Assembly (NCBI RefSeq): GCF_000019525.1
Contig: NC_010506.1
Coordinates: 806,001 to 870,000, forward strand
Reading direction: 5' to 3'
DNA: 64,000 nt
DNA from: Shewanella woodyi ATCC 51908
GTDB taxonomy: Bacteria > Pseudomonadota > Gammaproteobacteria > Enterobacterales > Shewanellaceae
Part shown: piece by piece, positions 19,629 to 49,260 of the stretch
Layout of the letters: each line of letters begins with the position of its first letter
Position numbering within the stretch: the stretch's first letter is position 1
Translations under genes and position numbers: made by a program
The notes under the pieces: generated by a model
Told to the model about the DNA's origin: nothing
The model's database searches: none
What the model saw: the letters and a program-made list of their open reading frames with translations, nothing else

Positions 19629-19671
19629 TTGCAACTCAATATTATCTAAATTAGATGCAGGTGTAATAGGG

Positions 19672-22449: not shown

Positions 22450-23783
22450 TGAATAAGGATATGAAACACTTTGATCTTTTTGGTATAGGCATCGGGCCTT
22501 TTAACTTGAGTATTGCCGCGCTGTCTCAAGGCATTAATGGGTTAAATACAGCTTTTGCCGATGCTCATAAGTCGATGACTTGGCACCCTGGTTTGCTGCT
22601 CAATGAAGCGAGAATGCAGACCAGTCCATTGAAGGATATGGTGACGGCTGTTGAGCCGACCAATCCGCTCTCGTTTCTCTCTTACCTAGTGAATAAACGC
22701 AAAATCTACGCCTATATGGCGGCCCAGATGGACACCATCAGCCGAATAGAGTTTGCCGATTATTTAGCTTGGGTAGCCAGTAGAGTGGATAACCTGATCT
22801 TCGATAACCCCGTGGATGCAGTGGAGTTTTCTGGTGATAAATTTCTAATCCATAGCAAGCAGGGGATATTTACCAGCCAGCATATCTGCCTAGGAACCGG
22901 CAAGGTTGCTCACCTGCCAGCATGTGTTAAGCCCTATATGGGCCCTAAATGTCTGCATGCTAGTCGCCTAGCGTTAAAAGATCGCAGCTACCAAGGGAAA
23001 ACCGTGGCTGTGGTCGGTGGTGGTCAAACTGGCGCCGATGTTTTTCTAAACCTGTTGCAGCGTCAGTGGGGGGAACCAACACGGGTTATCTGGATCTCGA
23101 GACGGCCTAATTTTCAAGCCTTGGATGAGGGGGTCTTTACCGATCAGTACTTTACTCCTGGTTATGGCGAGATCTTCTATGGATTGAGTGAACAAGTTAA
23201 AAGCCAAGAGGTGAAACATCAGAAGCTCTCGAGTGATGGCATTACCAGTGCATCTTTGAATGAGATCTATCAGCATCTCTATCAAGAGCGGTTTATTAAG
23301 GGAGACAAGGCGGGAGATAAATGGAACCTGCGCCCCCACAGAACGCTAACAAAGATGCGTGAGCAAGGTGACAAATTTGAGCTGACCTTAAGGAACGGGA
23401 TCACAAATTGTGATGAGTCACTTGAGGTGGATGAGTTGATCCTCTGTACCGGTTTTGAATCGCAGATCCCAAGTTATCTGGCGCCGATTAAGCAGAAACT
23501 AGATATCGACCGCTATGGTCAATTTAATCTAAATCGCGAGTTTTCTGTTGCTTGGGATGGACCACAAACCAATAAAGTCTATGCGGTTAATGCGGGTATT
23601 CATAGCCATGGAATTTTAGAGCCTCAGCTTAGCCTAGCCGCTTGGCGTAGCGCCGTCATCATCAATGACATGCTTGGGCATAACCATTTTGACCTTTCAT
23701 TAGAGGAGTCAATTATAGATTGGGGCCAGGAGGCTCCAGTTTTAAACAAAGAAAGTATTATTAAACATCAGGGAATAAAATAG
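22449..23783 (+). CDS. Lysine/ornithine/diamine N-monooxygenase of siderophore biosynthesis
   Basis: This 444-residue flavoprotein belongs to the IucD/PvdA/AlcA N-hydroxylase family. FGIGIGPFNL near the N-terminus binds FAD, VAVVGGGQTGADVFLNLL is the NADPH motif and LILCTGFE the conserved late motif. It hydroxylates the side-chain or terminal amine of lysine, ornithine, putrescine or cadaverine; the substrate cannot be read from sequence. The start overlaps the stop of the synthetase fusion by one base (TGATG), indicating coupled translation. No decarboxylase is present in the cluster, so a diamine would come from elsewhere. Confidence 0.92.
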   Translation: MNKDMKHFDLFGIGIGPFNLSIAALSQGINGLNTAFADAHKSMTWHPGLLLNEARMQTSPLKDMVTAVEPTNPLSFLSYLVNKRKIYAYMAAQMDTISRIEFADYLAWVASRVDNLIFDNPVDAVEFSGDKFLIHSKQGIFTSQHICLGTGKVAHLPACVKPYMGPKCLHASRLALKDRSYQGKTVAVVGGGQTGADVFLNLLQRQWGEPTRVIWISRRPNFQALDEGVFTDQYFTPGYGEIFYGLSEQVKSQEVKHQKLSSDGITSASLNEIYQHLYQERFIKGDKAGDKWNLRPHRTLTKMREQGDKFELTLRNGITNCDESLEVDELILCTGFESQIPSYLAPIKQKLDIDRYGQFNLNREFSVAWDGPQTNKVYAVNAGIHSHGILEPQLSLAAWRSAVIINDMLGHNHFDLSLEESIIDWGQEAPVLNKESIIKHQGIK

Positions 23784-26044
23784 TGTCTAAGTTCAAGTTA
23801 GCCCCAATATCGACCGCCATTTTGCTTTCCACACTGGGTGGAGCTGCATGGGCTGAGAGTGACCAACTTAATGTCGATAATCAAGAGATGGAGGTGATTA
23901 ATGTCACCGCTAAACCTTTCGATACCCCAGTATCTTCACTGCCAGGAACGGTTCAGATCATTGATCAGGAGGCGATTGCTGCACAGATCAGTGTAAGTGC
24001 CGATCTGTCTGGATTGCTAGCAAACCTAGTGCCGAGCTACGGCCCTGAAACTCAGATGATGTCCAGTACATATCAGGGGTTTCGTGGCCGAAAAGCGATA
24101 GTGATGATCGACGGGGTCATTGTGTCGAATACGCTACGTGATACCAGTCGGGTGCTCTCATCTATCTCGGTGGAGAATATCGAACGTATCGAGGTGATAC
24201 AGGGGGCGAGCGCTGTATATGGAAATGGTGAATCTGCTGGTGTGATCAACCTTATCACCTATCAGGCAAGTGAAGAGGGGATCGCATTTTGGAGCCAAGC
24301 AAAAATTGATGGCTCTATCCATGACTCTGATTCAATCGGTTACCAACTAAGCCAGCGAGTCTCTGGCACTCAAGGTCAATTTAACTATCTGGCTCAGCTT
24401 AACTGGCGAGATTCAGGCACCCTATTTGATGGTGAAGGTACTCAAATTCCCTCAGATCCAGCGGGACGTGGTGGGCAGGGGGAGCTAGAAGACCTCGACG
24501 CCTTAGTTAAACTTGGTTATCTATTTGATGATGACTCAAGCATGGCGCTGAACCTGCACACTAGAAAGCTTGAAAATCAACTGAGCTTTGCACGTAAAAC
24601 AGTGTTTGATGAAACCGTTGTGGTTGATACCTCTAAACCTTTTACTGGTGATGCGCCCTATAGCGAAAACAAGTATCTGCAGTTTACCTATCATGCTCCC
24701 TCGTTAGGTGGCCATCAGGTGAATATCGAACTGAGTGCCAGCGAAAGTGAAAATACTCAAGCAAACAAGGTGCTGACTCAGTCTAAAAAGCAGGCTGCAC
24801 GTATCGCAGCCCAGCCTCTAAGGTTACCTAGGGAGCAAGACCGACTCACCTATGGTATCGATTATCAAGTGGATAAAACCAAACAGATCAGCGCGAAAGG
24901 GATCTGCGAGATCTGTAATGTCGAGCAGACCAACATCGCCCCTTTTGCAGAGTATGAGTTTAACCAAGATGACTTTATGCTGCAGTTCGGCGTCCGTTAT
25001 GAGCATTTTGATCTCGATGTGCCAGATTATCTGGCTACAGGTAGATATGGATCTACACCATACAGTGGCCAAACCATCGAGGGTGGTAGCTTAAATTACA
25101 GTAAGCCTGTATTTAATTTGGGTGGGGTTTATCGATTTGAAACCACAGAAGTTTATGCCTCATTTTCACAAGGGTATGGACTTGGCGATCTGCGTCGACT
25201 TCGTTCTATAGATGTGCCTGAGGTTGAGCAATATGATGACAAGATGAAACCAACCGAAGCCAATAATTTTGACTTGGGTTATCGGGGACAGTTCGATAGT
25301 TTCAGTTTCGATATAGGCCTTTTCTATACTCAATCTGAACGTGCCCAGAGTTATGTCGATATATTGGATCAGGTGATCTACGGCACTTTAGCCACGATAG
25401 ACCCTCGGCTGGTTTATGATCAATCTAACACACTAAATCCTGATGCTATTGATGCCGTGGTGAGCCGCGATGAGAAGACCTACGGGCTTGAGCTTATCTC
25501 ATCCTATGCGATTAATGACACCTTTACCTTTGGCGGAAATTTGAGTTATACCCAAGGTGAATATCGTCACCCGACAAAGGGTTGGGTGGAGATGAACAAC
25601 GCCCGCATTAGCCCGATGAAAGCCAATCTATTTCTCGATATGAACTTGAACGATGAGTTTGGTGGTCTGTTACAGGTCAACTATGTAGGCTCACGAGATG
25701 AAGGTACAGAGATAGATCTGCCACTGCCGCAAAACGGTATGTGGGGAACCTTTAATGGCTATAGCTATTACAACGCACCTACCGAGAGTTATACCACGGT
25801 GGATCTCAGCCTCTTCTATCAAAGTCATTTTGGTCGATTTACTTTAGGGATCAAAAACCTGTTTGATAAGGTTTATCGCCCAGCCTATGCCCAGATGGGG
25901 AGTGGTAGTGTGTATGGCGGCATCGACTTGCCAAGCGATCCTACTTTAGATCAGCTAGAAGGCTTAGTGCGTGACTATGCGTTCAAAGACAGCTACAACG
26001 CTCAAGGAACGACCTTCACCTTAGGTTATCAAGTTTATTATTAA
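23783..26044 (+). CDS. TonB-dependent siderophore receptor
   Basis: This 753-residue outer-membrane receptor begins with a GTG overlapping the previous stop (TAGTG). A signal peptide (cleavage near GAAWA-ES) is followed by a TonB-box-like MEVINVTAK, then a plug domain (LPGTVQIIDQEAI, FRGRKAIVMIDGV, IERIEVIQGASAVYGNGESAGVINLIT) and a long beta-barrel with the late FTLGIKNLFDKVYRPAYAQM. The C-terminus ends in an aromatic residue, as usual for outer-membrane barrels. As the last gene of the operon it should import the ferric form of the siderophore made by the upstream enzymes. Confidence 0.92.
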   Translation: MSKFKLAPISTAILLSTLGGAAWAESDQLNVDNQEMEVINVTAKPFDTPVSSLPGTVQIIDQEAIAAQISVSADLSGLLANLVPSYGPETQMMSSTYQGFRGRKAIVMIDGVIVSNTLRDTSRVLSSISVENIERIEVIQGASAVYGNGESAGVINLITYQASEEGIAFWSQAKIDGSIHDSDSIGYQLSQRVSGTQGQFNYLAQLNWRDSGTLFDGEGTQIPSDPAGRGGQGELEDLDALVKLGYLFDDDSSMALNLHTRKLENQLSFARKTVFDETVVVDTSKPFTGDAPYSENKYLQFTYHAPSLGGHQVNIELSASESENTQANKVLTQSKKQAARIAAQPLRLPREQDRLTYGIDYQVDKTKQISAKGICEICNVEQTNIAPFAEYEFNQDDFMLQFGVRYEHFDLDVPDYLATGRYGSTPYSGQTIEGGSLNYSKPVFNLGGVYRFETTEVYASFSQGYGLGDLRRLRSIDVPEVEQYDDKMKPTEANNFDLGYRGQFDSFSFDIGLFYTQSERAQSYVDILDQVIYGTLATIDPRLVYDQSNTLNPDAIDAVVSRDEKTYGLELISSYAINDTFTFGGNLSYTQGEYRHPTKGWVEMNNARISPMKANLFLDMNLNDEFGGLLQVNYVGSRDEGTEIDLPLPQNGMWGTFNGYSYYNAPTESYTTVDLSLFYQSHFGRFTLGIKNLFDKVYRPAYAQMGSGSVYGGIDLPSDPTLDQLEGLVRDYAFKDSYNAQGTTFTLGYQVYY

Positions 26045-32201: not shown

Positions 32202-33095
32202 GTGAAAGTATTAGTGACGGGGACGGCTGGTAGAGTGGGACGGGCTATCTATATTCACCTGATGAAAAGCCATGAGGTGGTAGGAGTCGATAAAACGCCA
32301 TGTTCGACGGTGAATTATGTGGGAGATATTCGCGATTCAGCCCTGATGAATACTGCATTAAATGGGGTTGAGGCGATCATACATACGGCGGCCCTGCATG
32401 CGCCTCACGTAGGTTTATGCTCAGAAGGTGAGTTTGCCGAGATAAACATTAATGCCACCGAACAACTTGCCTTATTAGGACTACAAAGGGGCGTGAAACA
32501 TTTTATCTTTACCAGTACCACGGCTCTCTATGGTTATGCCTCAACGCCTGAAGGAGTCGCAGGCTGGGTTGATGAAACTGTGCAGCCACAGCCTAAGAGC
32601 GTTTACCATAAGTCTAAAATAATGGCGGAAAGCATGCTTGAAAATATATCTAAGCAGTTTGCTTTGCCAATCACAGTGCTTCAGATGTCACGCTGCTTCC
32701 CTGAATCAGCCGACTTTATGTCGGTATACCGCCTAACTCGGGGGATCGATGTTCGCGATGTGGCCCTTGCTCATGCTTGCGCGCTAGATAAGCGACTTCA
32801 AGGGTTTAGGCGTTATATTATTTCGGGTAAGACGCCCTTTGTAAGGGAAGATTGCGAACAGTTACCTCTTCATGCTGCAGGTCTTATTCAAGCCCATATT
32901 CCAGAGCTTGCACAGGAGTTTGCCAACAGGGGCTGGCAGTTGCCCCAAGGATTAGATCGCGTCTACGATTCATCGCTAGCACAGCGTGAGCTAGGCTGGC
33001 AGCCTAAGCATAGTTTTGAGAGTGTGTTGAGCATGTTAGACAGTGAGAGTTCAGAGGTTCTACCGGTTTTGGGTCAAGCTTCGAATGAAGCTTGA
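32202..33095 (+). CDS. NAD-dependent epimerase/dehydratase (extended SDR)
   Basis: This 297-residue protein starts with a GTG that immediately precedes the Rossmann motif KVLVTGTAGRVGRAI. Other features of extended SDRs are EAIIHTAALHAPH, FTSTTALYGY and the catalytic YHKSK. It resembles UDP-sugar 4-epimerases and related reductases, but lacks a pathway context that would fix the substrate. The 136 bases upstream hold no clear ribosome-binding site or promoter that I can support. Its end overlaps a terminator hairpin. Confidence 0.8.
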   Translation: MKVLVTGTAGRVGRAIYIHLMKSHEVVGVDKTPCSTVNYVGDIRDSALMNTALNGVEAIIHTAALHAPHVGLCSEGEFAEININATEQLALLGLQRGVKHFIFTSTTALYGYASTPEGVAGWVDETVQPQPKSVYHKSKIMAESMLENISKQFALPITVLQMSRCFPESADFMSVYRLTRGIDVRDVALAHACALDKRLQGFRRYIISGKTPFVREDCEQLPLHAAGLIQAHIPELAQEFANRGWQLPQGLDRVYDSSLAQRELGWQPKHSFESVLSMLDSESSEVLPVLGQASNEA

Positions 33096-33111
33096 TTACA
33101 TTTTCTTATTT
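33075..33111 (+). terminator. Terminator overlapping the end of the epimerase gene
   Basis: CAAGCTTC and GAAGCTTG form a perfect 8-base stem around GAAT, followed by ATTACATTTTCTTATTT. The stem includes the last codons of the epimerase gene. Confidence 0.75.
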
Positions 33112-33229
33112 AGCTTTTGGCTGAGTGGGTATTGGGTTGATTGCTGAAGCTTGTACCTTCATTGTTATCTATCGCCTCCAGCGGGGGGGAATGTGTAGCT
33201 ACTTCTGCGAGACGCTGGCTCTTGATTTC

Positions 33230-33370
33230 AAAAGAGTCTTCCAATGTAAGCTCGACGACAGCATCTGACCCACAAGGATGTGGGAAATGCCGGAAAATGT
33301 AGGGAACATTTCTGGCCATGCTGTCAACGGCCACAGCTGCAACTACACCTGTTCATGAGTCTCTTCGATT
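33230..33370 (-). repeat. Dispersed intergenic repeat, copy A
   Basis: Read on the minus strand, this starts with AATCGAAGAG, then CAGGTGTAG, then CATGG, and has long inverted repeats (GACAGCAT/ATGCTGTC enclosing two smaller hairpins, one being CCCACA...TGTGGG). A related element in opposite orientation lies at 38324-38403. In the first 55 bases I count about 38 matches by eye. The rest of the 33096-33601 gap holds no gene I can support; a short frame running through the repeat is not credible. Confidence 0.65.
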
Positions 33371-33601
33371 TGGCTTTACTTGGTAAGGTTTCGTAAATCA
33401 TTTCTGCCCCATTATCAGTTATGCCTCACGAAAATTAATAATGGGGTGTTCTAACTTTTCCATAGATTTACTAATGAGTAGAAAAGGCAAGAGTTGATCT
33501 CTATGGATTCTTCGTCTCAAGCACCTAATTGATCAACAACGCATACTAATACCAAGGTAACTGCAAGCTTCACTGTTAACTTTTTGATCAAGTGTAATAA
33601 A

Positions 33602-35725
33602 TTACTCAGGAATATGATTATCTTCTATTGGCCAAGGTTTACTCTCGCCAAAAATAGTCTCAATGCCTTCCTTGATCTCCGAGATATCATCCAAATACAG
33701 TACTCTAAGATTTTTTATCGCTCGCGAAGAGGCAACATAGAGTAAATTTTGGGTATTAATATGTTTTTCTTCCACTTCGCGGTCAGAAAGTAAGCGCTTT
33801 TTTTCTTCCTCATTTTGTTGTATTACATTAAAGTAATTTTTAAATTTATCTTTATTTATCTTACCAAAACTATGCTCTAGGATGATGGCGACATTCTTGT
33901 ACTCTTCACCCTTAGTGCCATGATAGGTATGGTAGCTAATATCATCGGCTTCGATACCATAAATAAAGTTTGCCCAGTTCATTAAGGATGTGATTGGCAA
34001 CTCTAAAATGCTATCATTTTTTTCTTTGGCCTTATCTTCATCCTCCGAATCCTCATTCATTAGAATATTAATGCTGTCTAACAATGATGAGCGAAATACA
34101 TCAGCAGAAATTACATCGCCCTCAAAATGATTAACCCTATTAATCAGTACCTTACCTAGAACTTCTTTAGCATTACTATTATCAAGTCGATCAATAATTA
34201 AGTCGACCCAATTTTTTAATGATGCAACTTCTGTATTTCCTAATTCACGGATAATCAAGCTTGCCTTGGAAAATGCCATATTTCTACTCGACGTTCCAAA
34301 AACATCATAGTACGAAACCTTTCCTTGTAGTATATCTTGGTAAAGCTTAATAAGGTGAAAAATGGCTAAAACCGTTGGATGTAGCTTTTCTAATTGTTGA
34401 GATAACACTTGGGTATTTAGATTGTCATAATAGATAGCTGATTTTTGAAACACTTCATAAACATCACCAAACCCATTAAAGTTTGCCATTAGTTTGTTTG
34501 TTAATACTAAGCAATGAATTTTAGTATCTTCAGGAGATATATCTCCTGATTCTCCATTGTGTGTGACAAGTTCATTTTTATACTCAACTAGGAATTGTTG
34601 AGCTGTAGTAAGTTTGTCCTCTGAATTATTGTAGTAAAAGCGTACTGAACCAGTATTTCGTTCCTCAAAGATAGGTACTTGAACTATTTGATCAGCACGA
34701 ATGTTATTGGCGACATCAATAATTTGCTGGTGTGAACGTCTATTAAATATCTTATCGACATTAACCAAGCCATCATGAAGACCTTCAATCTTTCGACCAA
34801 CCCCATCATCATAAATGCTCTGCGCAGTATCACCAAAATAGCCTACCACCCAGTCTTTATTGTTTTCTATTGCGTAGTCATGAATAGTTTTGACAAATTT
34901 AACTACGTTGCTATGTGTATCCTGATATTCATCAATAAAGAAATAAGGGTAGCTATCAATAATAATGCGGCAAAGGGTAGGGTAAGTTTCAACTAGCTTT
35001 AACCCATACTCTAGTAGGGTATCATGGCTGAACTTCATGTAGTGAAGCCTGTCAGAATTTACCTTGCTGTCATATTCAACACGCTTTATCTCTCCAGTAT
35101 CGATTCTTTCTAAGCAAACTTTAAGCCTTTGCTTTTTGTATAATAGACCAACGACAAATTTGAAGTTCCTTACATTTCTTAAGCAATTATCTAGAAATTC
35201 TGGTTTATTAATCTCAGTATTATAAGCGTGTCTGAAAGGAGCTGCGTTTAGTTTTTTAGATTGATAGAACAGATCTTTAGTCTGTATAGCAAACTCCAAA
35301 AACTCTTGTTGTTCTGGCTGTTCGAGGTCATTAAAGAATTGGGCTTTGGGGGAGCCTAACAGGTCTTGTTTATTTTTCTCTATAACCTCTTCTATTTTCT
35401 CCTTATGACATATCAAAAGCTGAGGCTGAGCCCTTTTGATTATCTTCCATATCCTTTCATGAATTGTTGAAACTTTTACCGCATCTGAGTTACCTAGTCG
35501 GCTCTTTATCTCATTCACCGCAACATTGGTATAGGTGATACAAGCCACTTTTTGTGGGCTTTTGGTGGCTGCTATTTTATTGATAGTGACGTATTTTAGC
35601 GTTTCTATCAGTGCATAGGTTTTACCTGCACCCGCACCAGCGTTGAAACGAAAGCTATTAAAATCATCGATGTGTTTATGGATGCTTTTCTGAATATCGA
35701 GTTCAGCTATCTCATTGGACGTCAT
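33602..35725 (-). CDS. UvrD/Rep-type superfamily 1 helicase of a Gabija-like system (GajB-like)
   Basis: The frame opens further upstream, but the ATG at 35725 (MTSNEIAELDIQKSIH) is preceded by GGGGG and lets the helicase begin normally (707 residues). Core motifs run in order: NAGAGAGKTYAL (Walker A), CITYTNVAVNEI (Ia), FFIDEYQDTH (II), VGYFGDTAQSIYDD (III), YHTYHGTKGEEYKNVAI (V) and LLYVASSRAIKNL (VI). It is therefore likely an active ATP-dependent DNA translocase. It overlaps the OLD-family nuclease gene by 14 bases. Class 2 OLD nucleases are typically paired with such helicases, as in Gabija anti-phage systems. It is longer than the ~494-residue GajB that I know of. Visibly A+T-rich relative to neighbours. 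Confidence 0.85.
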   Translation of the reverse strand: MTSNEIAELDIQKSIHKHIDDFNSFRFNAGAGAGKTYALIETLKYVTINKIAATKSPQKVACITYTNVAVNEIKSRLGNSDAVKVSTIHERIWKIIKRAQPQLLICHKEKIEEVIEKNKQDLLGSPKAQFFNDLEQPEQQEFLEFAIQTKDLFYQSKKLNAAPFRHAYNTEINKPEFLDNCLRNVRNFKFVVGLLYKKQRLKVCLERIDTGEIKRVEYDSKVNSDRLHYMKFSHDTLLEYGLKLVETYPTLCRIIIDSYPYFFIDEYQDTHSNVVKFVKTIHDYAIENNKDWVVGYFGDTAQSIYDDGVGRKIEGLHDGLVNVDKIFNRRSHQQIIDVANNIRADQIVQVPIFEERNTGSVRFYYNNSEDKLTTAQQFLVEYKNELVTHNGESGDISPEDTKIHCLVLTNKLMANFNGFGDVYEVFQKSAIYYDNLNTQVLSQQLEKLHPTVLAIFHLIKLYQDILQGKVSYYDVFGTSSRNMAFSKASLIIRELGNTEVASLKNWVDLIIDRLDNSNAKEVLGKVLINRVNHFEGDVISADVFRSSLLDSINILMNEDSEDEDKAKEKNDSILELPITSLMNWANFIYGIEADDISYHTYHGTKGEEYKNVAIILEHSFGKINKDKFKNYFNVIQQNEEEKKRLLSDREVEEKHINTQNLLYVASSRAIKNLRVLYLDDISEIKEGIETIFGESKPWPIEDNHIPE

Positions 35726-38033
35726 CAGATGTAACCCCCGTACTTTCAACTTCCACATCAACCGCCGTTTCAACTCTACTTAATGAAGGCATGTCATTGG
35801 TTTTCAGTTTAGTCACAAGCCAATTTAAGCCATCTTCTAGGTAGTTTGGTAATTGTGGCAAAACCTCTCCTTTTTCTGCTGAAAGTAGGCTAAATATTAG
35901 TTCATTAGAGAACGTGCTCTTACTGTCTGAAAGTTTTTTCTGTAGCTTATACGAGTGATTAATAAAGTTCCTTAGTGATTTTTTTCCACCGCCATTTAAA
36001 ATCCCCTCATATATCTTAGGTTTACAGCTTTTAATCACATCGTTAATAATTTTATTTTGGTAGTTAGTTAAAATTAACGCTTCTTCTAAGCTAGTCGCGT
36101 GTTGCCCCTTAATAAGATCTTTTTGGAATACGACATAAAGATTATCATCCTCAAAGAACTCTATATTACTAATCTTATTTGCAACTTCTTTAGACTTACC
36201 TTTTAATGTACGATTAAAATCAATAAGAGTTGTATTAGTAGTTATGCGGCTAACAAGGCTCTTGATTTGAAGATAGCGAGGAGGTGTTCCTGCAACGTAA
36301 GGGGTGGCTTCACCATCTTTAGGTTGCTGGCCACATGCCTCACACGATTCATCTTTTTTATGCTTTTCACCCTTCTCACACTTTTCACGCTTGATATCCA
36401 AATCGGTAACAATCAAGCTAGGGACACTAAGCTTTTTCGCCAGCGGAAGATACAATTTACCGTGAGCACCATTAATGTTAAAAACTGAGATATAGTATTC
36501 GCTAAGGCTTTGGTGATTTTCCAAATAGTAATTTAACAAGGTTTCTTCTGTGATACCCTCAACAAAGATAACAGCATCAGAAAAGAACAATTCTGAGACT
36601 TTGTACTTTATGTGCTTTTTAATGAAATTGAGCTTTTTATTCGCATCACTATCATCACTAGAAACTACGGCCTCATCTGTGAGGTTTATGGCTTTAGTAC
36701 ATTTGTTTATTGAGGTTAAATAGTTAATGCTATTGAAGGTATTACTGCTGTGAATCTTACTATTGACGATATGAGAAGAGTGAGTCGTAATTGCTATCTG
36801 ACACTGTAGTGTTTTTGGATCTTGTGAAGACGCATTTGCGATCTCCACTGCTTTTTTTACTGCATTATCAATACGCTTAATGAAGAACTCTTGCATCTGA
36901 GGGTGCATAAACGCCTCTGGTTCTTCAATAAAGAGTAGATTAATGCGGCTTAGATGACTGTTCTCTTCATAGCTATCAACAAAATGGATAATTTCACCAA
37001 TAATGTTTAGCAGGTTGATATAGCCTAAGCCAAATTGGTCTTCTGGAATAAAGTCAGCGTCATCCATGAAGTTATATTTGATCAGCCCTTTCATGATGGC
37101 TTCGTAAGTAACGTTACCAGATAGATTCAGATTAACCTTGTTTGTACTTTCTACCTTCCCCAAGACTTGAGATATATCAGTACTTTTAGCACCTACATTG
37201 TCAGATATCTTTTTATTTATTGACTCTATGCTTGCTTCTAAACTAGAACGAGAGCTAACGTCATTAGCGAACTGAAAGGCAACGATTTTGTTAAAGACAT
37301 CGCTTAGTACACCTTCTTTAAGATGACGGTTAGCTTTAATTTCTTTAATATTTATCAGTTTTTTTAGGGAAAATTTCTCTGTTGCATCACCTAGAAGATC
37401 CATAAACACGATTTGATAAAGATTACCCTCTGTTTGAATAACGCTACTTTCTTTTGAAAGCAGTGCGTAAAATTTTTCAAACCTTTGGTTGCTCTCTAGC
37501 TCTTGCCCCTCTGAACCAGTAGCTTTAAAGATTTTGCTAGCTTCCTCTTTAAATGCAGATTCTTCTGCAAGCGCCACTTTAACCACGATGTACACGCTAA
37601 CTGGTTTCCCATTACCTTCTTCACTAATTGGGATAAAAGGTGCAAGGTGAGTCATCAAATCTTCATCATTGAAGTCCACTTTAACCCTCAAGCCGAACTC
37701 TAAATTAGGTGTTGCTAAAGATTTAAATTTTGTAAGTTGATCCGCTTCAAAATCTTGTTTGTACTGATTGAACAACTCATTTAAGTAGGAGAGGTTAAAG
37801 TCTGATGCTGAGGGTTGTTCATTATTGCATAGCATCTTTAATGCATTGACGACTGTAGTTTTACCAGCGTTATTCTTACCTATGATTAAGGTTGTTGAAG
37901 GAGCAATCACTGATGACTCTGGCTGATCTTCTTCAACACTCATATCGACAACTTCAGGCTTAACGAAGCATACCGTATTGTCTGTATCACGAAATTTTCT
38001 GTAATTTTTTATGGTTAGACTCTCTAAATACAT
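35712..38033 (-). CDS. OLD-family ATPase with TOPRIM nuclease domain (GajA-like)
   Basis: This 773-residue protein has an SMC/ABC-type ATPase (Walker A GKNNAGKTT at 52-60, FGLGYINLLNII in the signature region, Walker B LLFIEEPEAFMHP, His loop ITTHSSHIVNS) followed by a TOPRIM domain: VEGITEE with Glu492 and VTDLD with Asp544/Asp546. This is the layout of OLD nucleases. In Gabija the related GajA nicks DNA and is gated by nucleotides. Within the TOPRIM, Cys552, His558, Cys564 and Cys567 form a possible zinc site. Known GajA is about 578 residues, so this has extra sequence in the ATPase and TOPRIM parts. First gene of a two-gene unit; anti-phage function is inferred. Confidence 0.87.
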   Translation of the reverse strand: MYLESLTIKNYRKFRDTDNTVCFVKPEVVDMSVEEDQPESSVIAPSTTLIIGKNNAGKTTVVNALKMLCNNEQPSASDFNLSYLNELFNQYKQDFEADQLTKFKSLATPNLEFGLRVKVDFNDEDLMTHLAPFIPISEEGNGKPVSVYIVVKVALAEESAFKEEASKIFKATGSEGQELESNQRFEKFYALLSKESSVIQTEGNLYQIVFMDLLGDATEKFSLKKLINIKEIKANRHLKEGVLSDVFNKIVAFQFANDVSSRSSLEASIESINKKISDNVGAKSTDISQVLGKVESTNKVNLNLSGNVTYEAIMKGLIKYNFMDDADFIPEDQFGLGYINLLNIIGEIIHFVDSYEENSHLSRINLLFIEEPEAFMHPQMQEFFIKRIDNAVKKAVEIANASSQDPKTLQCQIAITTHSSHIVNSKIHSSNTFNSINYLTSINKCTKAINLTDEAVVSSDDSDANKKLNFIKKHIKYKVSELFFSDAVIFVEGITEETLLNYYLENHQSLSEYYISVFNINGAHGKLYLPLAKKLSVPSLIVTDLDIKREKCEKGEKHKKDESCEACGQQPKDGEATPYVAGTPPRYLQIKSLVSRITTNTTLIDFNRTLKGKSKEVANKISNIEFFEDDNLYVVFQKDLIKGQHATSLEEALILTNYQNKIINDVIKSCKPKIYEGILNGGGKKSLRNFINHSYKLQKKLSDSKSTFSNELIFSLLSAEKGEVLPQLPNYLEDGLNWLVTKLKTNDMPSLSRVETAVDVEVESTGVTSDDVQ

Positions 38034-38323
38034 GAATTTCTCTTTTCTATATTATTTTTAAGCCGTTTACTTAGTTAATTCACTGTAACATACTAACTAT
38101 ATTGGATATTTGATTAAAGTCATAGACACACTTTAAAAGCACTTTAACCTTCAGGATGGAGTTTGCTTATATACCGGAGGTTGACTTATCAACGGAACAA
38201 AGGGACTTATAACTTGCGTTTTCTACTGAAGAGTAGGCTTAGTTTTGCTAATCCTGTACTGGTGTTCTAGAGCAGGAAATCTAGCTCATTTATGTCCAAA
38301 AATGAGTCACAACCCAAAACCTC

Positions 38324-38403
38324 AATCGAAGAGGTAAACGTTCAGGTGTAGATGCGGCAGTGAGCTTCGATGACATGGATGTCATCGTAGAGACTACAGG
38401 GAT
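38324..38403 (+). repeat. Dispersed intergenic repeat, copy B
   Basis: AATCGAAGAG, CAGGTGTAG and CATGG occur in the same order and spacing as in copy A (33230-33370), in the opposite orientation, followed by GATGACA-TGGA-TGTCATC, a compact hairpin, and a further related stretch (GTAGAGACTACAGGGA against GTCGAGCTTACATTGGA in copy A). The repeats bracket the OLD/UvrD gene pair. The surrounding gap (38034-38609) otherwise holds the promoter region of the OLD gene and no gene I can support. Confidence 0.65.
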
Positions 38404-38609
38404 TGTACTCGTGTCGTCTCACTGAAGTATCTGCACGGAAGCATGCTGCAGGCAATAAACATCAGCTTAGCTATGGTATTCAGCAAACCAGCCAAACACT
38501 AAACCTGCCCGATGAACCCAATCCAAAAAGATACTTGAAGCTTGCTATCAGGCAAGCGCAAACCTTCTTGTTGGAAACAACAAAAAGGCTTGAATGCCTG
38601 TAACCTTGC

Positions 38610-39767
38610 CTAATGTCTCAGGCTTGAGACCTGTTTCCACTGTCGACGTCCCATCTCCAATATCACCCCAACAGCGAGTCCTGCTGCGGTGTTGACGACT
38701 AGGCAGATGGCAGCGGTGGAAAGGATGACGAAGATACAGAAAGGTTTTCCGTCGATTAATCGCTTTGACCAAGCCAGTTGGGTACCAGCAATGGCAAGCA
38801 TGCTGCCAAGTATCGCTAGCGGGATAAGGGATAACATGGTGGCGATACCATCTCCCCAGCTAAAGGCGATAAGCAGACAAGCTGTACCGAAGATAGTTGG
38901 AGCTATCCAGGTTCTGGCACCAAAGTGATGTTGCACCGCAAGACCACCCGCACCGTGGCACATGGCGGTGGCGCCAAAAGGAGCCAGTAATAGGTTGGCA
39001 AGTCCTGAGCTGGTGGCTAGTCGTTTAGGTGTGAAGTTCTCCTTACCATTGACCTTATCTGCTGGAAACTTATCTTTTGCCATCGCAGAGATGGCGATCA
39101 CCGCATTGGTTAAGGTCAGTGCCAGTTGCGGCAGAACTAAAAGACCCGCCGCCGAGGTCCACTCATCGAGACTTGGCCAACTGGGTTGCCAGCTTGTGTG
39201 ACCGGTAAGATCGAAGCTAGGGGCAATGCCGCTGTTCATCTGCCAGATAATGCCAAGGGCGAGCACGAGTGGCATAGCTAGATACCTAAGAGGCATAAAC
39301 TTACTGGCAAAGAGGGCGATAAAAGCGCTTATGCCAATAAGCCAAGTTTCACTCATCATCTGGCCACCCATCCAGATTAACTGGAGACCGATGGCGAGTT
39401 GAATGCCGATACTTACTGCTGGTGAGAGCTGCTTTGCCATCCAAGTTATCGCGCCGCTATAGGCGAGTAGGAGTAAGATAGCTCCCATCATCATGCCGCT
39501 CGCTTGTAGCATGCCTGGGGTGAGGCCTTGGGCGATAACTAAGGCTGCGATCACTTTCATCGGCTGCACGGGGATCGGGCGTCGATAATAGAAGGCGGTA
39601 AAGAGCGCAAACAGGCCGAAACCTAAGAAGATCCCTTGAGGAGAAAAGTGGTTTAAGGCAATAAGACCTAAAACTAGCGGTAAAAAAGTACCAAGATCGG
39701 CGAAGGCTCCACTGAGTTCACCTGAGAGTTGATCACATCTACTAAAAAATGTGCTTTTGCATGTCAT
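38610..39767 (-). CDS. MOT1-like sulfate/molybdate family permease
   Basis: This 385-residue membrane protein has about ten to eleven helices and the family signatures GELSGAFADLGTFLPL near the N-terminus and PIPVQPMKVIAA soon after, with a second-half copy of similar character. It resembles the MOT1/SulP-like putative molybdate or sulfate transporters of bacteria. The substrate is not established for bacterial members. It is monocistronic; no molybdate cofactor genes are nearby. Confidence 0.8.
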   Translation of the reverse strand: MTCKSTFFSRCDQLSGELSGAFADLGTFLPLVLGLIALNHFSPQGIFLGFGLFALFTAFYYRRPIPVQPMKVIAALVIAQGLTPGMLQASGMMMGAILLLLAYSGAITWMAKQLSPAVSIGIQLAIGLQLIWMGGQMMSETWLIGISAFIALFASKFMPLRYLAMPLVLALGIIWQMNSGIAPSFDLTGHTSWQPSWPSLDEWTSAAGLLVLPQLALTLTNAVIAISAMAKDKFPADKVNGKENFTPKRLATSSGLANLLLAPFGATAMCHGAGGLAVQHHFGARTWIAPTIFGTACLLIAFSWGDGIATMLSLIPLAILGSMLAIAGTQLAWSKRLIDGKPFCIFVILSTAAICLVVNTAAGLAVGVILEMGRRQWKQVSSLRH

Positions 39768-43187: not shown

Positions 43188-43342
43188 AATGTTATTTAAG
43201 TCTATTTTAACTTTGAATTAATGATCTATAAATTTATCTCATAGGTCCTATTTTTATTTTAATTTTTACTGCGACTACAATCCGCTCGTTGAAAATTCAG
43301 CCTGCTGAATATTACTGTAAATTAAATAGAATAGGATCTCTT

Positions 43343-43552
43343 ATGAATAAGTTTTACTGCAATACAATGGCTTTTCTTGCTACTTACAAAAAAGATGAGC
43401 GCGGCGTAACAGCGATTGAATATGGCTTGATCGGTGTCGCAATGGCCGTGGCTTTGACTGCCGCTTTCGCTTCTGACGGTAACTTGATGACTGCATTAAA
43501 TACAGCATTTACCAAAATCACTGATAGTTTAACCAAGATCACAGCTGGCTAA
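43343..43552 (+). CDS. flp: Flp/Fap-type pilin subunit
   Basis: The open frame begins earlier, but the ATG at 43343 (MNKFYCNTMAFLATYKKDERG) follows AGGAT at good distance and gives the typical 69-residue prepilin. The class IVb signal is cut between Gly and Val in ERG-VTAIEYGLI, leaving Glu5 and the Flp motif with Tyr6. This is the major structural subunit of the Tad pilus, used in attachment and biofilm formation. A short palindrome (ATTCAG-CCTG-CTGAAT) lies 33 bases upstream. Confidence 0.9.
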   Translation: MNKFYCNTMAFLATYKKDERGVTAIEYGLIGVAMAVALTAAFASDGNLMTALNTAFTKITDSLTKITAG

Positions 43553-43574
43553 ATGATGTAGAAACACATCTATC

Positions 43575-44069
43575 ATGTTGGCGATTGCTTCCCTGTTACT
43601 CGTTTTAGTTATCTGTTGCTTAACTGACATATGCAAACGACGTATTTCAAATATTGGGTGTTTCGCCACATTGATCATTTGTGTTTGGCTGGCCGCTAGT
43701 CAACAGCTGTTAATTGAAGGCTTTCTAACAGGCTCTTTAATCTTTGCGCTGAGTCTAGTGCTTTTCAGATTTCGGTGGCTTGCCGCCGGAGATGGAAAGT
43801 TAGCCAGTGCCCTTGCGGTTGCTTTACCACTATCGCAGCTACCTGTGGCACTGATGCTCACCTTGATATGTGGTGGCGTGCTAGCCGTGATCTACCTGAT
43901 TAAATACCGAGTGATACAAAAAATTCCCCGTGGTGAAGATCTAGGCTTGCCCTATGGCATCGCTATTTCACTGGGGTTTTACATCCCGATTTTGGCCTTC
44001 TACTTAGGCGAATTAGAGGGAGCGAGTCAAACCTCGCTTTTGGCTACCGCAGTCGTTAATCGGCTCTAA
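43575..44069 (+). CDS. tadV: Prepilin peptidase TadV/CpaA
   Basis: A 164-residue A24-family aspartic protease with several membrane helices. The catalytic aspartates can be seen in LTDICKRRISN and in AAGDGKLASA (the GD-x-K motif). It processes the Flp pilin encoded just upstream, and probably the TadE/F pseudopilins. It lacks the N-methylation domain of the longer PilD type, as expected. Confidence 0.9.
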   Translation: MLAIASLLLVLVICCLTDICKRRISNIGCFATLIICVWLAASQQLLIEGFLTGSLIFALSLVLFRFRWLAAGDGKLASALAVALPLSQLPVALMLTLICGGVLAVIYLIKYRVIQKIPRGEDLGLPYGIAISLGFYIPILAFYLGELEGASQTSLLATAVVNRL

Positions 44070-44084
44070 TAGAACAGTTGAATA

Positions 44085-44924
44085 ATGCTTAACTCTAAAT
44101 TGATTTTCATTATCGCATTTATTGCGGTATTGACCGGCCTGTATGGTGTGGCGGATAAGTTGCTTTCCACCTCAGAGTCGGTGACTCAGCCTGTTAGCGA
44201 TGATGGCATAGCGAAAACCTTCACTTTGTGGCAGACAAAATCCTCTCTGAATAAGGGGGAGCATCTGAGTCTAGCCGATCTCAAAAGAGTGCAGTTGGGC
44301 AGAGATGAGTCTTTGGCTCTGGGAGTCAATGCTGATGTCGAGTTAAACCTAGACCCTCAATCACTATTGAACTCATCAGTCGAGGCGGGGCAATACCTCT
44401 TTCCTGAACAACTTTCTCATCCAGGAGAGTCGGGGTACCTCAATCTTATTACCCGCGAAGGGATGACGCTTTATCCACTGACGGTGGCGACAAGAAATAT
44501 GATCCAAGACTACATCCTGCCTGGAGATGAGATAGACATCATGACCGTGAGTTCCCCACAGCATAATTTAGCCAATGATATGAGCAGGCTGGATGATTTT
44601 ATTGGTTTACGTGCATCGATGTTGATGAAGAGGGTGAGGGTGATCTCTGTGGCTGATTCAGATACTGACTCTCAATCTCAATCAAGCAAGATTAGTCCAA
44701 GCATGAAAAGCTCTGATAAATCTCAAACCCGTATTGTTATCGAGGTGGATCCAGAGGATCTTCCCCGTTTAACTTTGGCCCAGCGAACCATGCATATTGA
44801 GGTGTTCCATAGCCAAAGTTACCGCGCTAAGCCCGAGGCCGATGTGAGTGATGTGATTAACAACTATACCGGTGTGGTTGAGCTACGTGGCGCATCTGAA
44901 AACAGTGTAGGCGGAATTTTTTAA
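44085..44924 (+). CDS. cpaB: Flp pilus assembly protein CpaB/RcpC
   Basis: A 279-residue protein with one N-terminal membrane helix, a SAF-type domain (KGEHLSLADLKRVQLG, AGQYLFPEQL) and the C-terminal RcpC region (YILPGDEIDIMTV...TRIVIEVDPEDLPRLTLAQ). CpaB/RcpC works with the secretin in the outer-membrane part of the Tad machine. It precedes the secretin gene by only two bases. Confidence 0.87.
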   Translation: MLNSKLIFIIAFIAVLTGLYGVADKLLSTSESVTQPVSDDGIAKTFTLWQTKSSLNKGEHLSLADLKRVQLGRDESLALGVNADVELNLDPQSLLNSSVEAGQYLFPEQLSHPGESGYLNLITREGMTLYPLTVATRNMIQDYILPGDEIDIMTVSSPQHNLANDMSRLDDFIGLRASMLMKRVRVISVADSDTDSQSQSSKISPSMKSSDKSQTRIVIEVDPEDLPRLTLAQRTMHIEVFHSQSYRAKPEADVSDVINNYTGVVELRGASENSVGGIF

Positions 44925-44926
44925 CC

Positions 44927-46267
44927 ATGAAAAGTCGAATTAATTTCTGGGCGAAAGGCCTTATTGTCAGCCTGTTTTTCTGCAGTTATGTCATGGCCAG
45001 TGACAGATTTGTCACCCTTAATGATGCCTCAAGTATTGAGCTGAAGCAGGAGATAGGCACGGTTTTTATCAGTCAGCCAGAAGTCGCCGATTATAAAATT
45101 ACAGGTAACAATAAGTTAGTGATTTATGGGCGTCAATTGGGGCAGGCAAGGCTGTTTGTTTATAACAAGGCCAATGAAGTTATCTTATCTCAACTGCTTC
45201 ATGTGGATATCAATCTGTCCCAAATTCGTCGCCAGTTGAAACTATTTTACCCAGATCTCGACCTAACTCTGACCTCAGTGGGCGATAAGGTAGCGGTGCG
45301 TGGCATCGTCTATAGCGAAGAGCAACGTAACGATATCTACCGTCAGGTGGCCACGTTTTTAGGTCGCGAAAAGGTTGAGCGCTTTGATGAGTCGGAGTTG
45401 GTGGAGTTTAAGGACTCCTTTACCGAAGCGAATTGGCTGGCCTATGAGCGCAATTTTATCTGGCAGGGGATCATCGAAGGGCTGAGGCTCTCTCAGACCC
45501 AGCAGGTCAATGTGAAGATCTCCGTGGCTCAGGTGACGAAAGAGTTTAATGAAACCTTAGGGGTGAGCTGGTCAACGGTTGGGCGAAGTGTTGGTGAGTT
45601 CTCTTTTCTCGATTTTAAAGCCAGCGATCTAAGCACCATTATTAATGCCCTTGGCAAGGACAGTATCGCTGAGGTTTTGGCTGAGCCTAATCTATCAGTG
45701 ATGTCTGGTGAATCGGCAAGCTTTCTGGTGGGGGGCGAGATCCCTGTGATATTCAGCAACAATAATACCACCAACATTACCTATAAAGAGTTTGGTATTC
45801 GATTGGACCTGTCTGCCAAGGTGCTCAATAACGAGAAGATAAAGCTACAGATGATGCCCGAGGTGAGTGCAGTCGAAGGTTTTGTTGAAGCGGCGGGCAT
45901 CAAGATCCCTCAACTTACCACTCGGCGTGCGATGACCACCATAGAGTTAGGTGATGGGGATAGCTTTCTATTAGGTGGCTTGATGAGCAGTGATGAGCTG
46001 GAAAATGTCAGCAAGATCCCACTATTAGGTGACATTCCAGTTTTTGGAGCCCTGTTTAGGCAAGCGGGAACGACTCGTAAGAAAACCGAGCTGGTGATTG
46101 TGGCCACAGTGAATCTGGTAAAACCTCTCTCTCCTACTGAGGTACGTCTACCTAAAATGACACCGACTAAGTCTTTGGCACGATTCTTCAATATCACTGC
46201 CGACTCCGATGAGAACAACAAGGTTAACGTGATTCAGATGCTTAATCAGGGAGGATTTATTCAGTGA
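44927..46267 (+). CDS. rcpA: Tad secretin CpaC/RcpA
   Basis: A 446-residue type II/III secretion-type secretin with a signal peptide, a BON-like N-terminal domain (SIELKQEIGTVFISQPEVADYKI; LTSVGDKVAVRGIVYS) and the C-terminal secretin domain (VLAEPNLSVMSGESASFLVGGEIPV, DGDSFLLGGLMSSDELENVSKIPLLGDIPVFGALFR). It forms the outer-membrane pore for the pilus. Overlaps the next gene by four bases. Confidence 0.92.
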   Translation: MKSRINFWAKGLIVSLFFCSYVMASDRFVTLNDASSIELKQEIGTVFISQPEVADYKITGNNKLVIYGRQLGQARLFVYNKANEVILSQLLHVDINLSQIRRQLKLFYPDLDLTLTSVGDKVAVRGIVYSEEQRNDIYRQVATFLGREKVERFDESELVEFKDSFTEANWLAYERNFIWQGIIEGLRLSQTQQVNVKISVAQVTKEFNETLGVSWSTVGRSVGEFSFLDFKASDLSTIINALGKDSIAEVLAEPNLSVMSGESASFLVGGEIPVIFSNNNTTNITYKEFGIRLDLSAKVLNNEKIKLQMMPEVSAVEGFVEAAGIKIPQLTTRRAMTTIELGDGDSFLLGGLMSSDELENVSKIPLLGDIPVFGALFRQAGTTRKKTELVIVATVNLVKPLSPTEVRLPKMTPTKSLARFFNITADSDENNKVNVIQMLNQGGFIQ

Positions 46268-46755
46268 AGAGCTTAATCACCATTAGCCTGCTAGTGCTGA
46301 GTTTATCAGGCTGTGCCGACAAAGCTTCCACTCAGATGGGCAGCGAAGCCTTGGTTTACCAAGAGCTGCACCATTTTGTTATTGAGCCGAAGAGGAGTGG
46401 TTCAAAGACTGAGGTGGACAGTGAGTTTACGCGCATTATTGCTAGTTTTCATCAGGGATTTGAACAGACAAATTGGCATTTAGGTTATCGGTATGAGTCG
46501 GATAAGCCTTGGGTTACTTCGCTCGAGATGAGCTTGCTCAATTTAGGGCTAAACCCAGCCAGAATCCATGTTGAGAAGTTGCAGTCTGGCAACAGAGTTA
46601 TCGATATCCGTGTTGGCCAATACAAGCTGAAATCCCAAGAGTGTCGACGCAGCATTTTTGGTGAAATGGGCAATGATGTGGGCTGCTATGTCGACTCCAT
46701 GCGGCTTAAGCAGGTGCGTGATGTGCAAACCTTAGCAGCAAAGGAGGGTTTGTAA
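46264..46755 (+). CDS. CpaD/RcpB-like Tad lipoprotein
   Basis: A 163-residue protein starting with GTG, overlapping the secretin stop, with a lipoprotein signal (LLVLSLSGC-AD). I do not see strong sequence motifs, but its place between the secretin and the TadZ gene and its lipidation fit CpaD/RcpB, an outer-membrane partner of the secretin. Assignment is mainly positional. Confidence 0.65.
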   Translation: MKSLITISLLVLSLSGCADKASTQMGSEALVYQELHHFVIEPKRSGSKTEVDSEFTRIIASFHQGFEQTNWHLGYRYESDKPWVTSLEMSLLNLGLNPARIHVEKLQSGNRVIDIRVGQYKLKSQECRRSIFGEMGNDVGCYVDSMRLKQVRDVQTLAAKEGL

Positions 46756-46756
46756 T

Positions 46757-47992
46757 ATGTTTGATCTGGCAAAAGTGATCACTAAAAACAGTGAGCAGAC
46801 TCGCGAGCAAGCAGGGCCAGCTAGCTGCTCCTTCTACTACCAATCCTCTGAGTGCCTCGAGTTGATCGAACAGGTTTTCCGTTTCGAAGGCTGGAATGTT
46901 CCCGATTGTATTAAAAGCTCAACTCCAGGTGAGCTGCAGCTCGACGCCCTTAAAGATATCGTTATTTTAGAGCTGAATAACTCCAAAAATGTGGTTAAAG
47001 ATGCCCGTGAATTTGCTGCCAAACTCCCAAATCAGAAGGGGGTGATTGTAATAGGTAAAGAGGACACCATCACGACGCTACGTGAGCTCAAAGAGATGGG
47101 GATCTATTATCTATTCTGGCCACTGAATCAGGAGGAGTTAAGTGAGTTTTTGCGCCATGTTCATAATAATTTGCAGCACCTCTCTGGCGTTAATAAAAAC
47201 CGTAAGGCGAAGCGTGTCGCTGTGGTGGGCACAAAAGGTGGTATAGGTAATACCATGATCACTTGCGAGCTGGCGGCGACCTTGGCGTATCAAGGGGTCG
47301 ACACCATTCAGGTGGATCATCAGTATTTTAATAGTAATACCGATATTTTATTAGGCCTTAAGAAGTTTGAACGTCAAGACACCGATAACCTCTCGTTACA
47401 GTTGCGGGATATGGATGAGGTGAGCGCCAGTAACTATCTGAGCAAGGTGGATGAGCATTGGCGTCTATTAGCGTTTGGTGGTTCACAGTCGGCAGAAGCC
47501 CTCTACAGTGATAGCCAGAATATCGCTGATCTGCTGAGTCGTCAGGCTAATTTTATTATCGAAGACTTCTCCAGCTCTAATGATTTTGTCATGGATCCAG
47601 CACTGCTATCCGATCGAGTAGATCTGTTTGTGATAGTCCTTGATGCTACCGTCTCATCGGTGCGAAATGCCAGTCAGATCATTGAGAAGATTGAGCTGCA
47701 TAATCTGTCTGGGACAGCGGATATTCGTATCTTAACCTTCCTAAATATTCATCGCCCTGAGGGGGGATTTCCTCTTAAAAAGGATGAGGTGGAGCGATAT
47801 CTCGCTCGCCCAGTTGATGTTCAGTTGGATTACGCCGCAAATTTCTCGGCCCTGATGTTATCTGGTAAGCGCTTGCACCGTTTAGAGAAGCGCAGTGGCG
47901 CGTTTAATAAATTGGCTCAGCTTATTCAGGGCAAACAACCAGAGCTGGCGAGCTCTCCTCTGAATAGATTTAAGGCGCTGGTTAAACGATGA
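46757..47992 (+). CDS. tadZ: Tad localisation ATPase TadZ/CpaE
   Basis: A 411-residue protein with an N-terminal receiver-like domain and a C-terminal MinD/ParA-type ATPase domain. The deviant Walker A motif at 158-166 reads GTKGGIGNT: the signature Lys160 is kept, but the P-loop lysine is Asn165. TadZ proteins commonly have altered Walker motifs; this one may bind nucleotide weakly. TadZ localises the Tad machine to the pole in other bacteria. Confidence 0.85.
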   Translation: MFDLAKVITKNSEQTREQAGPASCSFYYQSSECLELIEQVFRFEGWNVPDCIKSSTPGELQLDALKDIVILELNNSKNVVKDAREFAAKLPNQKGVIVIGKEDTITTLRELKEMGIYYLFWPLNQEELSEFLRHVHNNLQHLSGVNKNRKAKRVAVVGTKGGIGNTMITCELAATLAYQGVDTIQVDHQYFNSNTDILLGLKKFERQDTDNLSLQLRDMDEVSASNYLSKVDEHWRLLAFGGSQSAEALYSDSQNIADLLSRQANFIIEDFSSSNDFVMDPALLSDRVDLFVIVLDATVSSVRNASQIIEKIELHNLSGTADIRILTFLNIHRPEGGFPLKKDEVERYLARPVDVQLDYAANFSALMLSGKRLHRLEKRSGAFNKLAQLIQGKQPELASSPLNRFKALVKR

Positions 47993-49260
47993 ATAATAAA
48001 GAGATCTACTTAAGCTTTCGCGATCAGATCTTTGAAGCGCTTGATGCTCAGATGATTGCCAATATGCCGCGGGATGAGCTGTCTAGACAGATCCAAAGTG
48101 CGGTTGAGGTATTGGCGAATAATTTCAGCCAGCCCATCTCTACCGCAGTACGCACCATGACGGTAAAGAATCTGGTGGATGAACTATTGGGGCTTGGGCC
48201 GCTACAGCCGCTATTGGAAGATGACAGCATCAACGACATCATGGTCAATGGGCCAGATCAGATCTTCTATGAGCGCCACGGTAAAATTCACAGCTCAGAG
48301 GTGGTGTTTGTTAACGAAGCTCAACTACTCGAGATAGCCCAGCGCATTGCAGCAAGAGTTGGTCGCCGCGTCGATGAGTCCTCACCTATGGTCGATGCCA
48401 GACTCAGTAATGGTAGCCGAGTCAATATCGTTATCAAGCCTATCGCCATCGATGGTACGACGATCTCCATTCGTAAGTTCAGGGAGCAGAAGATTGGGCT
48501 GGAGGAGCTGGTTGGTTTTGGCTCTCTTTCGCCTGAGATGGCAAGAGTCTTGATGATCGCTGCTCGCTGCCGCTTAAATATCTTGATCTCAGGCGGGACA
48601 GGCTCAGGCAAGACAACCTTGCTTAATGCACTGTCTAACTATATTGCCGATGATGAGCGGATCATCACCATAGAGGACGCCGCTGAGTTAAACCTACAGC
48701 AGCCCCATGTGGTGAGGTTAGAAACCCGTCCAGCCAGTATTGAGAATAGTGGTCAGGTGGATCAAAGAGACTTGATCATCAACTCCCTACGGATGCGGCC
48801 AGATAGAATCATCTTAGGTGAGTGCCGTGGCGCCGAGGCGTTTGAGATGTTGCAGGCGATGAACACTGGTCACGACGGTTCCATGTCGACTTTGCATGCT
48901 AATACGCCAAGAGATGCGATCTCTCGAGTTGAGTCTATGGTGATGATGGCATCCCTTAACCAGCCTTTAGATGCCATCCGCCGCACTATCGTCGGGGCGG
49001 TCCATCTTGTGGTGCAGGTAAATCGTCAGCGAGATGGCTCACGTAAAATCACCAGTATCTCAGAGGTCGTTGGCCTTGAAGGTGAGAATGTGGTGATGGA
49101 GGAGCTATTCAAGTTTCAACCTACCGAAGGGCAGAGCATGGAAAAAGTGCTTGGTGAGTATCTCTCTCCTGGCATTATGCAGCGCTCTGTCTTGATGCAG
49201 CGTGCCGCTTATTTTGGGCTACAAGATGAGCTGATGCTGGCATTTAGAGGCCAGCAATGA
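47989..49260 (+). CDS. tadA: Tad secretion ATPase TadA/CpaF
   Basis: A 423-residue type II/IV secretion-type ATPase. Walker A is SGGTGSGKTT at 201-210; the Asp box (TIEDAAELNL), LRMRPDRIILGECRGAEAFEML Walker B region and the His box (MSTLHANTPRDAISRVE) follow. This is the cytoplasmic motor for Flp pilus assembly. It overlaps tadZ and tadB by four bases each. Confidence 0.95.
   Translation: MNNKEIYLSFRDQIFEALDAQMIANMPRDELSRQIQSAVEVLANNFSQPISTAVRTMTVKNLVDELLGLGPLQPLLEDDSINDIMVNGPDQIFYERHGKIHSSEVVFVNEAQLLEIAQRIAARVGRRVDESSPMVDARLSNGSRVNIVIKPIAIDGTTISIRKFREQKIGLEELVGFGSLSPEMARVLMIAARCRLNILISGGTGSGKTTLLNALSNYIADDERIITIEDAAELNLQQPHVVRLETRPASIENSGQVDQRDLIINSLRMRPDRIILGECRGAEAFEMLQAMNTGHDGSMSTLHANTPRDAISRVESMVMMASLNQPLDAIRRTIVGAVHLVVQVNRQRDGSRKITSISEVVGLEGENVVMEELFKFQPTEGQSMEKVLGEYLSPGIMQRSVLMQRAAYFGLQDELMLAFRGQQ

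Follow-up and report, generated by a model that had tools for sequence, protein, structure and literature searches.

A 64,000-nucleotide stretch of the Shewanella woodyi ATCC 51908 genome (NC_010506.1, positions 806,001 to 870,000; hereafter the window) carries an overlapping pair of minus-strand genes, gajA and gajB. Together they most probably form an intact Gabija system against phages, one that belongs to a branch with large subunits; we put the probability at roughly 0.88. gajA (35712–38033) encodes a predicted OLD-family ATPase-Toprim nuclease of 773 residues counted from its ATG, and gajB (33602–35725) encodes a predicted superfamily 1 (SF1) UvrD-type helicase of 707 residues from an ATG at 35725. 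The gajB start codon lies inside the end of gajA, giving an overlap of 14 nt. The open frame of gajB extends upstream to 35773, where a TTG start would yield 723 residues, and the database entry for the same GajB protein (P0121) likewise has 707. A preliminary description of this DNA had reported an OLD ATPase-TOPRIM protein of 773 residues and an SF1 helicase of about 707 residues as an overlapping unit, and we confirmed both frames at that place and on that strand. Judged by sequence, both proteins are intact. A search of the complete 5.94-Mb single-contig genome with gajA returned one match, gajA itself.

The preliminary description had also likened the pair to class 2 OLD proteins and Gabija and had suggested a check with PADLOC models. 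In that check the pair was called GajA and GajB over nearly its full length. GajA matched PDLC00065 (670 positions) with 691.6 bits (E 3.4e-208), residues 1–744 of 773 aligning with model positions 1–668, and GajB matched PDLC00128 (685 positions) with 870 bits (E 3.7e-262; model positions 5–683). With these E-values, chance is excluded as the source of the matches. Pfam assigned AAA_15 (residues 1–423) and OLD-like_TOPRIM (residues 483–546) to GajA and UvrD-helicase to GajB, all above the curated cut-offs. The AlphaFold2 model of GajA (mean predicted local distance difference test score (pLDDT) 85.2) had B. cereus GajA and the OLD protein of retron-Eco8 as its closest solved folds. The GajB model (mean pLDDT 87.8) was closest to UvrD, PcrA and Rep, with B. 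cereus GajB lower, at rank 42 in Foldseek.

Gene order gave the same result. Scanning the genomes of 84,980 species with six peptide patterns yielded 52 related loci, and a GajB-profile frame followed downstream on the same strand in 51 of them. In 49 loci the start of this frame lies in the span from 85 nt ahead of the end of the gajA frame to 7 nt beyond it, and in L032 and L051 it lies 451 and 630 nt past that end; in L053 the contig stops inside gajA. PADLOC, Pfam, gene order and the GajA fold thus agree with the arrangement that had been proposed.

As a reference we used the Gabija system of Bacillus cereus VD045 (GajA 578 residues, GajB 493–494 residues; PDB 8SM3, 8U7I and 8X5I). The S. 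woodyi pair shares with it the gene order (as given in passages of PMC10568477), the OLD ATPase-Toprim architecture with its E/G/DxD site, the SF1 UvrD-type partner and the fold of GajA. In contrast, S. woodyi GajA and GajB are about 195 and 213 residues longer, their sequence similarity to the reference is very low, and GajA has a Cys/His motif past the DxD.

The residues expected of an active nuclease and helicase were all present. For conservation we used the best 120 of 1557 GajA homologues and the best 120 of 3518 GajB homologues above threshold, at 0.55–1.75 times the query length. The Toprim core of GajA (Pfam PF20469; residues 483–546, 36396–36587, minus strand) contains E492, G522, D544 and D546, each found in 120/120 listed homologues, as were E371 and H418. 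In the alignment these four core residues correspond to E379, G409, D432 and D434 of B. cereus GajA, identified as its Toprim active-site residues in passages of PMC10781630. The Walker A lysine K58 (37860–37862, minus strand) is a lysine in 116 of the 120 and falls in a gap in the other four. In GajB, the peptides AGAGAGKT, DEYQD, GDTAQSIYD, TYHGTKGEEY and LLYVASSRA follow one another in a series that we take to be SF1 motifs in SF1 order. Motif I (Walker A, AGAGAGKTYA, 35612–35641, minus strand) has core residues that are invariant in 55 aligned homologues, and in motif II (Walker B, DEYQD, 34919–34933, minus strand) D265, E266, Q268 and D269 are invariant in the same set while Y267 is kept in at least 90%. 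The Walker A and DExQD-type Walker B definitions for GajB come from passages of PMC10781630; the corresponding motif of PA14 GajB is written DESQ in passages of PMC12407980.

Six residues past the DxD, GajA carries a putative zinc knuckle, C552-x5-H558-x5-C564-x2-C567 (36333–36380, minus strand). In the aligned columns the four positions are kept together in 118/120 listed homologues; P0093 and P0105 lack all four. Among the 53 loci L002–L054, all four ligand positions are filled in 11: eight have Cys-His-Cys-Cys and three, the Snodgrassella loci L009, L010 and L036, have Cys in place of His. Of the eight, L008 has a longer spacing; a further locus, L027, has three of the ligand positions. To trace the history of the motif we used a tree of 67 rows from which the insert columns were left out, calling the motif by a regular expression. 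It was found in 37 rows, all within one 40-row clade supported by a Shimodaira-Hasegawa-like approximate likelihood ratio test (SH-aLRT) value of 100; the members of this clade that carry names belong to Pseudomonadota. Four changes account for the pattern: one gain, the losses in P0093 and P0105, and L008, whose motif the expression missed. In the AlphaFold2 model the blocks 551–560 and 561–570 have mean pLDDT values of 94 and 93 and are mostly without helix or strand. We read the motif as a probable zinc knuckle that arose a single time within Pseudomonadota. Its role would be structural, at the point where the class 2 Toprim insert begins.

A different explanation is that the Cys/His motif is a conserved folding element or a redox pair and not a metal site. 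Two observations weigh against a zinc site. C411 (119/120) and C670 (114/120) are also conserved among the listed close homologues, and cysteine conservation alone is therefore no proof of a metal site. In addition, Zn2+ had no prominent influence on the activity of B. cereus GajA, which has no such motif, according to passages of PMC8136825. The zinc assignment itself comes from sequence and a structure model. On the other hand, the spacing is knuckle-like, Cys substitutes for His in the three Snodgrassella loci, and P0093 and P0105 have lost all four positions together. We consider a folding or redox role unlikely for these reasons, and favor the zinc knuckle. A search of published work, limited and mostly at title level, found no description of this motif; the word "zinc" is absent from the text of the retron-Eco8 paper PMC12887533, passages of which describe an expanded Toprim in the retron-Eco8 OLD protein. 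One might speculate further that S. woodyi GajA marks a Pseudomonadota clade whose Gabija differs in function: the knuckle, inserted in the Toprim catalytic loop, would control how DNA reaches the nuclease and make cleavage depend on zinc, redox state or docking of GajB, unlike in B. cereus. This proposal is doubtful at present.

The preliminary description had regarded the subunits as unusually large, perhaps those of a distinct subtype. The argument from size did not hold. GajA lengths among the 120 listed homologues range from 543 to 800 residues (median 770; 114 of at least 700) and those of GajB from 408 to 883 residues (median 708; 115 of at least 650). The matching PADLOC models have 670–752 positions for GajA and 669–685 for GajB, alongside shorter ones; S. 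woodyi GajA is about 100 residues longer than PDLC00065. Large size is normal for the branch and models of similar size exist; size was therefore rejected as evidence for a new subtype. The second part of the suggestion fared better: a branch of its own for S. woodyi GajA, far from B. cereus GajA, is supported, albeit by a quick tree with long branches.

In this OLD tree (67 proteins, SH-aLRT support), S. woodyi GajA falls in a 26-row clade (SH-aLRT 100) together with seven listed homologues and 18 loci. All 18 loci have a GajB-profile frame. The sister clade has 14 rows (SH-aLRT 93), 13 of them with a GajB-profile frame; the sequence of these loci extends only about 1.5 kb beyond the match, and the fourteenth may therefore have a partner farther out. 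The two clades join as 40 rows with an SH-aLRT of 99. B. cereus GajA was placed elsewhere; its branch has a length of 3.19 and was flagged as unsure by the program. This placement has SH-aLRT support only, and several long branches meet there, which counts against relying on it. When a profile of the branch was run against PDB with default filters, B. cereus GajA was listed neither at E<=0.01 nor in the best 60 of 87 matches at E<=10; with filters off it scored 29.3 bits with a bias of 25.5. A second profile, built from 12 different OLD proteins, reached B. cereus GajA at about 1e-44. On these sequence comparisons the kinship between the two GajA proteins appears real but distant.

A second reading has to be weighed, in which the large branch only resembles Gabija and is a defence system in its own right, an OLD-helicase pair with its own partner interface and trigger that profile libraries have lumped into Gabija. 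The deep split from B. cereus GajA, the failure of the branch profile with default filters, the low Foldseek rank of BcGajB for the GajB model and the lack of a matching Cys/His motif in the compared part of B. cereus GajA past the DxD would all fit this reading. However, PADLOC, gene order, the class 2 active site and the GajA fold all fit Gabija, and a review treats GajA and class 2 OLD as the same thing, noting that the Toprim of class 2 has a helical insert (passages of PMC10568477). A separate system is thus quite improbable, and a large-subunit branch of Gabija is the reading we retain.

Three other relatives were considered and rejected. GajA scored 46.2 bits against the NCBIfam family of retron Eco8, whose cut-off is 250, and unlike the retron-Eco8 OLD effector (class 3 OLD, 750 residues) its partner is a helicase. 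The S. woodyi genome yielded no reverse transcriptase (RVT_1) match at E 1e-3, and the same search was positive in 3 of 14 control genomes. In a search of 185 genomes from the class, no protein scored above the Eco8 family cut-off, and the OLD tree is thus without an Eco8-type reference. PARIS (AriA-AriB) was rejected as the AriA model aligned with residues 1–423 only, at 109 bits, far below GajA, and the partner gene is a helicase. Class 1 OLD, a solo protein without a helicase, was ruled out by the overlap of gajB with gajA.

By analogy with studied Gabija systems, GajA would oligomerize through its ATPase/dimerization domain and bind GajB; a 4:4 GajA-GajB complex is among the features of Gabija. 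GajB may sense or open DNA ends or single strands, and the metal-dependent Toprim site of GajA (E492, D544/D546) would then cut the invading DNA, with the ATPase domain as a regulator of cutting. In the Pseudomonadota clade of the branch, the probable structural zinc knuckle, in the loop past the DxD, would keep the first part of the class 2 Toprim insert in place. Passages of PMC12407980 describe PA14 Gabija as acting on linear phage DNA ends lacking RecBCD, and the protection by PA14 Gabija is reported there to change with recB status or phage end-binding proteins.

The large branch is widespread, with hosts that include Pseudomonadota, Bacillota, Bacteroidota, Campylobacterota and Thermodesulfobacteriota, and it is already catalogued as Gabija by PADLOC. 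It is apparently little studied. Passages of PMC11514479 report a weak effect for a tested Gabija of about 3.4 kb, those of PMC12322248 report broad protection by an S. thermophilus Gabija, and those of PMC13304284 treat a GajA of lactic acid bacteria. No tested system of the large branch was found in the parts of the Gabija literature consulted, a comparison that left the subunit sizes of PA14 and of other S. thermophilus homologues outside.

We then considered how S. woodyi came to possess the pair. The G+C content of gajAB is 36.0%, as compared to 44.9% in the rest of the window; sliding windows of the same size average 44.0% (standard deviation 2.6). The neighbors are genes for an NAD-dependent epimerase (32202–33095) and an MFS_MOT1 molybdate transporter (38610–39767), in line with the preliminary description of an A+T-rich pair between ordinary metabolic genes. 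Among 97 congeneric genomes, gajA had any match at E 1e-3 in 20 and a match above 400 bits in two, its own and G001 (41% identity, 437.8 bits). The next eight matches (L055–L062; 72–110 bits) have GajB-profile frames alongside and belong to the sister large OLD-helicase branch, with open frames of 664–825 residues; the one in G037 has an in-frame stop.

The transporter to the right of the pair is present in 78 of the 97 genomes, S. woodyi included. In eight relatives we compared 16–18 kb around it, and none had gajAB-like DNA there. Both sides of the site matched the window in five (G089, G014, G003, G057 and G010), the left side matched partly in G016, and no left-side gene match lay within the stretch in G092 and G094. 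The preliminary description had called the pair an acquired module, naming as the contrary outcome a grouping with housekeeping RecF-like proteins that every relative has at this site; judging from this patchy distribution and the absence at the site in 8/8 relatives, gajAB is an acquired module. That it is instead a housekeeping RecF/OLD-like repair pair is very improbable: ATPase and UvrD-type folds are common to repair proteins, but the low G+C, the two matches above 400 bits in 97 genomes and the eight sites without the pair speak against it, and the patchy distribution already contradicts it.

The relatives carry various cargoes at this position. In G092, beside the transporter (L095 6545–9558), we found a type II-A retron NDT effector (215.1 bits) and reverse transcriptase (345.6 bits) and a gene for a Thoeris-like ThsA macro-domain protein (165.9 bits). 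A group II intron maturase is also present beside the transporter. G094, G003, G057, G010 and G016 have other, by eye seemingly ordinary, genes. Because relatives hold defence genes in some cases and ordinary genes in others, the site is a variable one that sometimes holds defence genes and is not a pure defence hotspot. The same site in G014 (L094 10325–12218) encodes a DUF6602/PD-(D/E)xK/NucC-like protein (55.5 and 46 bits) and a 268-residue protein, possibly an undescribed two-gene module. In G089, two small ORFs at the site had no PADLOC match, and a 98-residue frame (L093 5471–5767) resembles by eye the start of an REP-associated (Y1) transposase, with no Pfam match at E 1e-3. The S. woodyi genome has 15 Y1_Tnp matches, none inside the window.

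The borders of the pair consist of repeated DNA. A dispersed repeat copy lies on the left (33068–33426, plus strand) and a related copy, inverted relative to it, on the right (38265–38565, minus strand). The left flank (33096–33601) has 74 matches in the S. woodyi genome and the right flank (38034–38609) has 59, each counting itself; parts of the two flanks show inverted similarity of 63–68%, and in some places copies stand in tandem about 280 nt apart. Compared to the nearest relative, G089, whose transporter is 99% identical, the window matches at 94% up to position 33214 and at 92% from 38295. Both synteny breaks fall inside the repeat copies, and between them G089 carries 4.6 kb of different DNA, some of which is made up of repeats. 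Exchange between dispersed repeats would explain the swapping of cargo at the site. No close mobile carrier of the pair was found in the plasmid and phage collections searched: at E 1e-20 there were 43 plasmid and 2 phage records, all below 60% identity, and one plasmid covered at least 80% of the query. An Rfam search of 32900–38800 gave no match up to E 1. Scans for promoters (10 matches; shuffle mean 16.5) and terminators (2; 3.5) lead us to claim neither element.

Ten other ORFs of the window had no PADLOC match at E 1e-5. Three genes scanned at 43289–49260 encode Flp pilin, a CbiA/ParA-type ATPase and a T2SSE ATPase, probably a tad/Flp pilus locus. The region 19606–26044 is concerned with siderophore synthesis and uptake, including a TonB-dependent receptor and a 947-residue protein that fuses an IucA/IucC synthetase with a GNAT acetyltransferase domain. 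An 804-residue protein (13992–16406) with a C-terminal YadA membrane anchor is probably a trimeric autotransporter adhesin.

In itself, the locus appears to be an ordinary acquired defence module, and only two points go beyond routine: the knuckle motif, and the fact that the branch seems to have no tested members. The known Gabija structures that we examined are those of the short B. cereus system (578 and 494 residues). Tests on the large branch would reveal to what extent the mechanism published for Gabija can be generalized.
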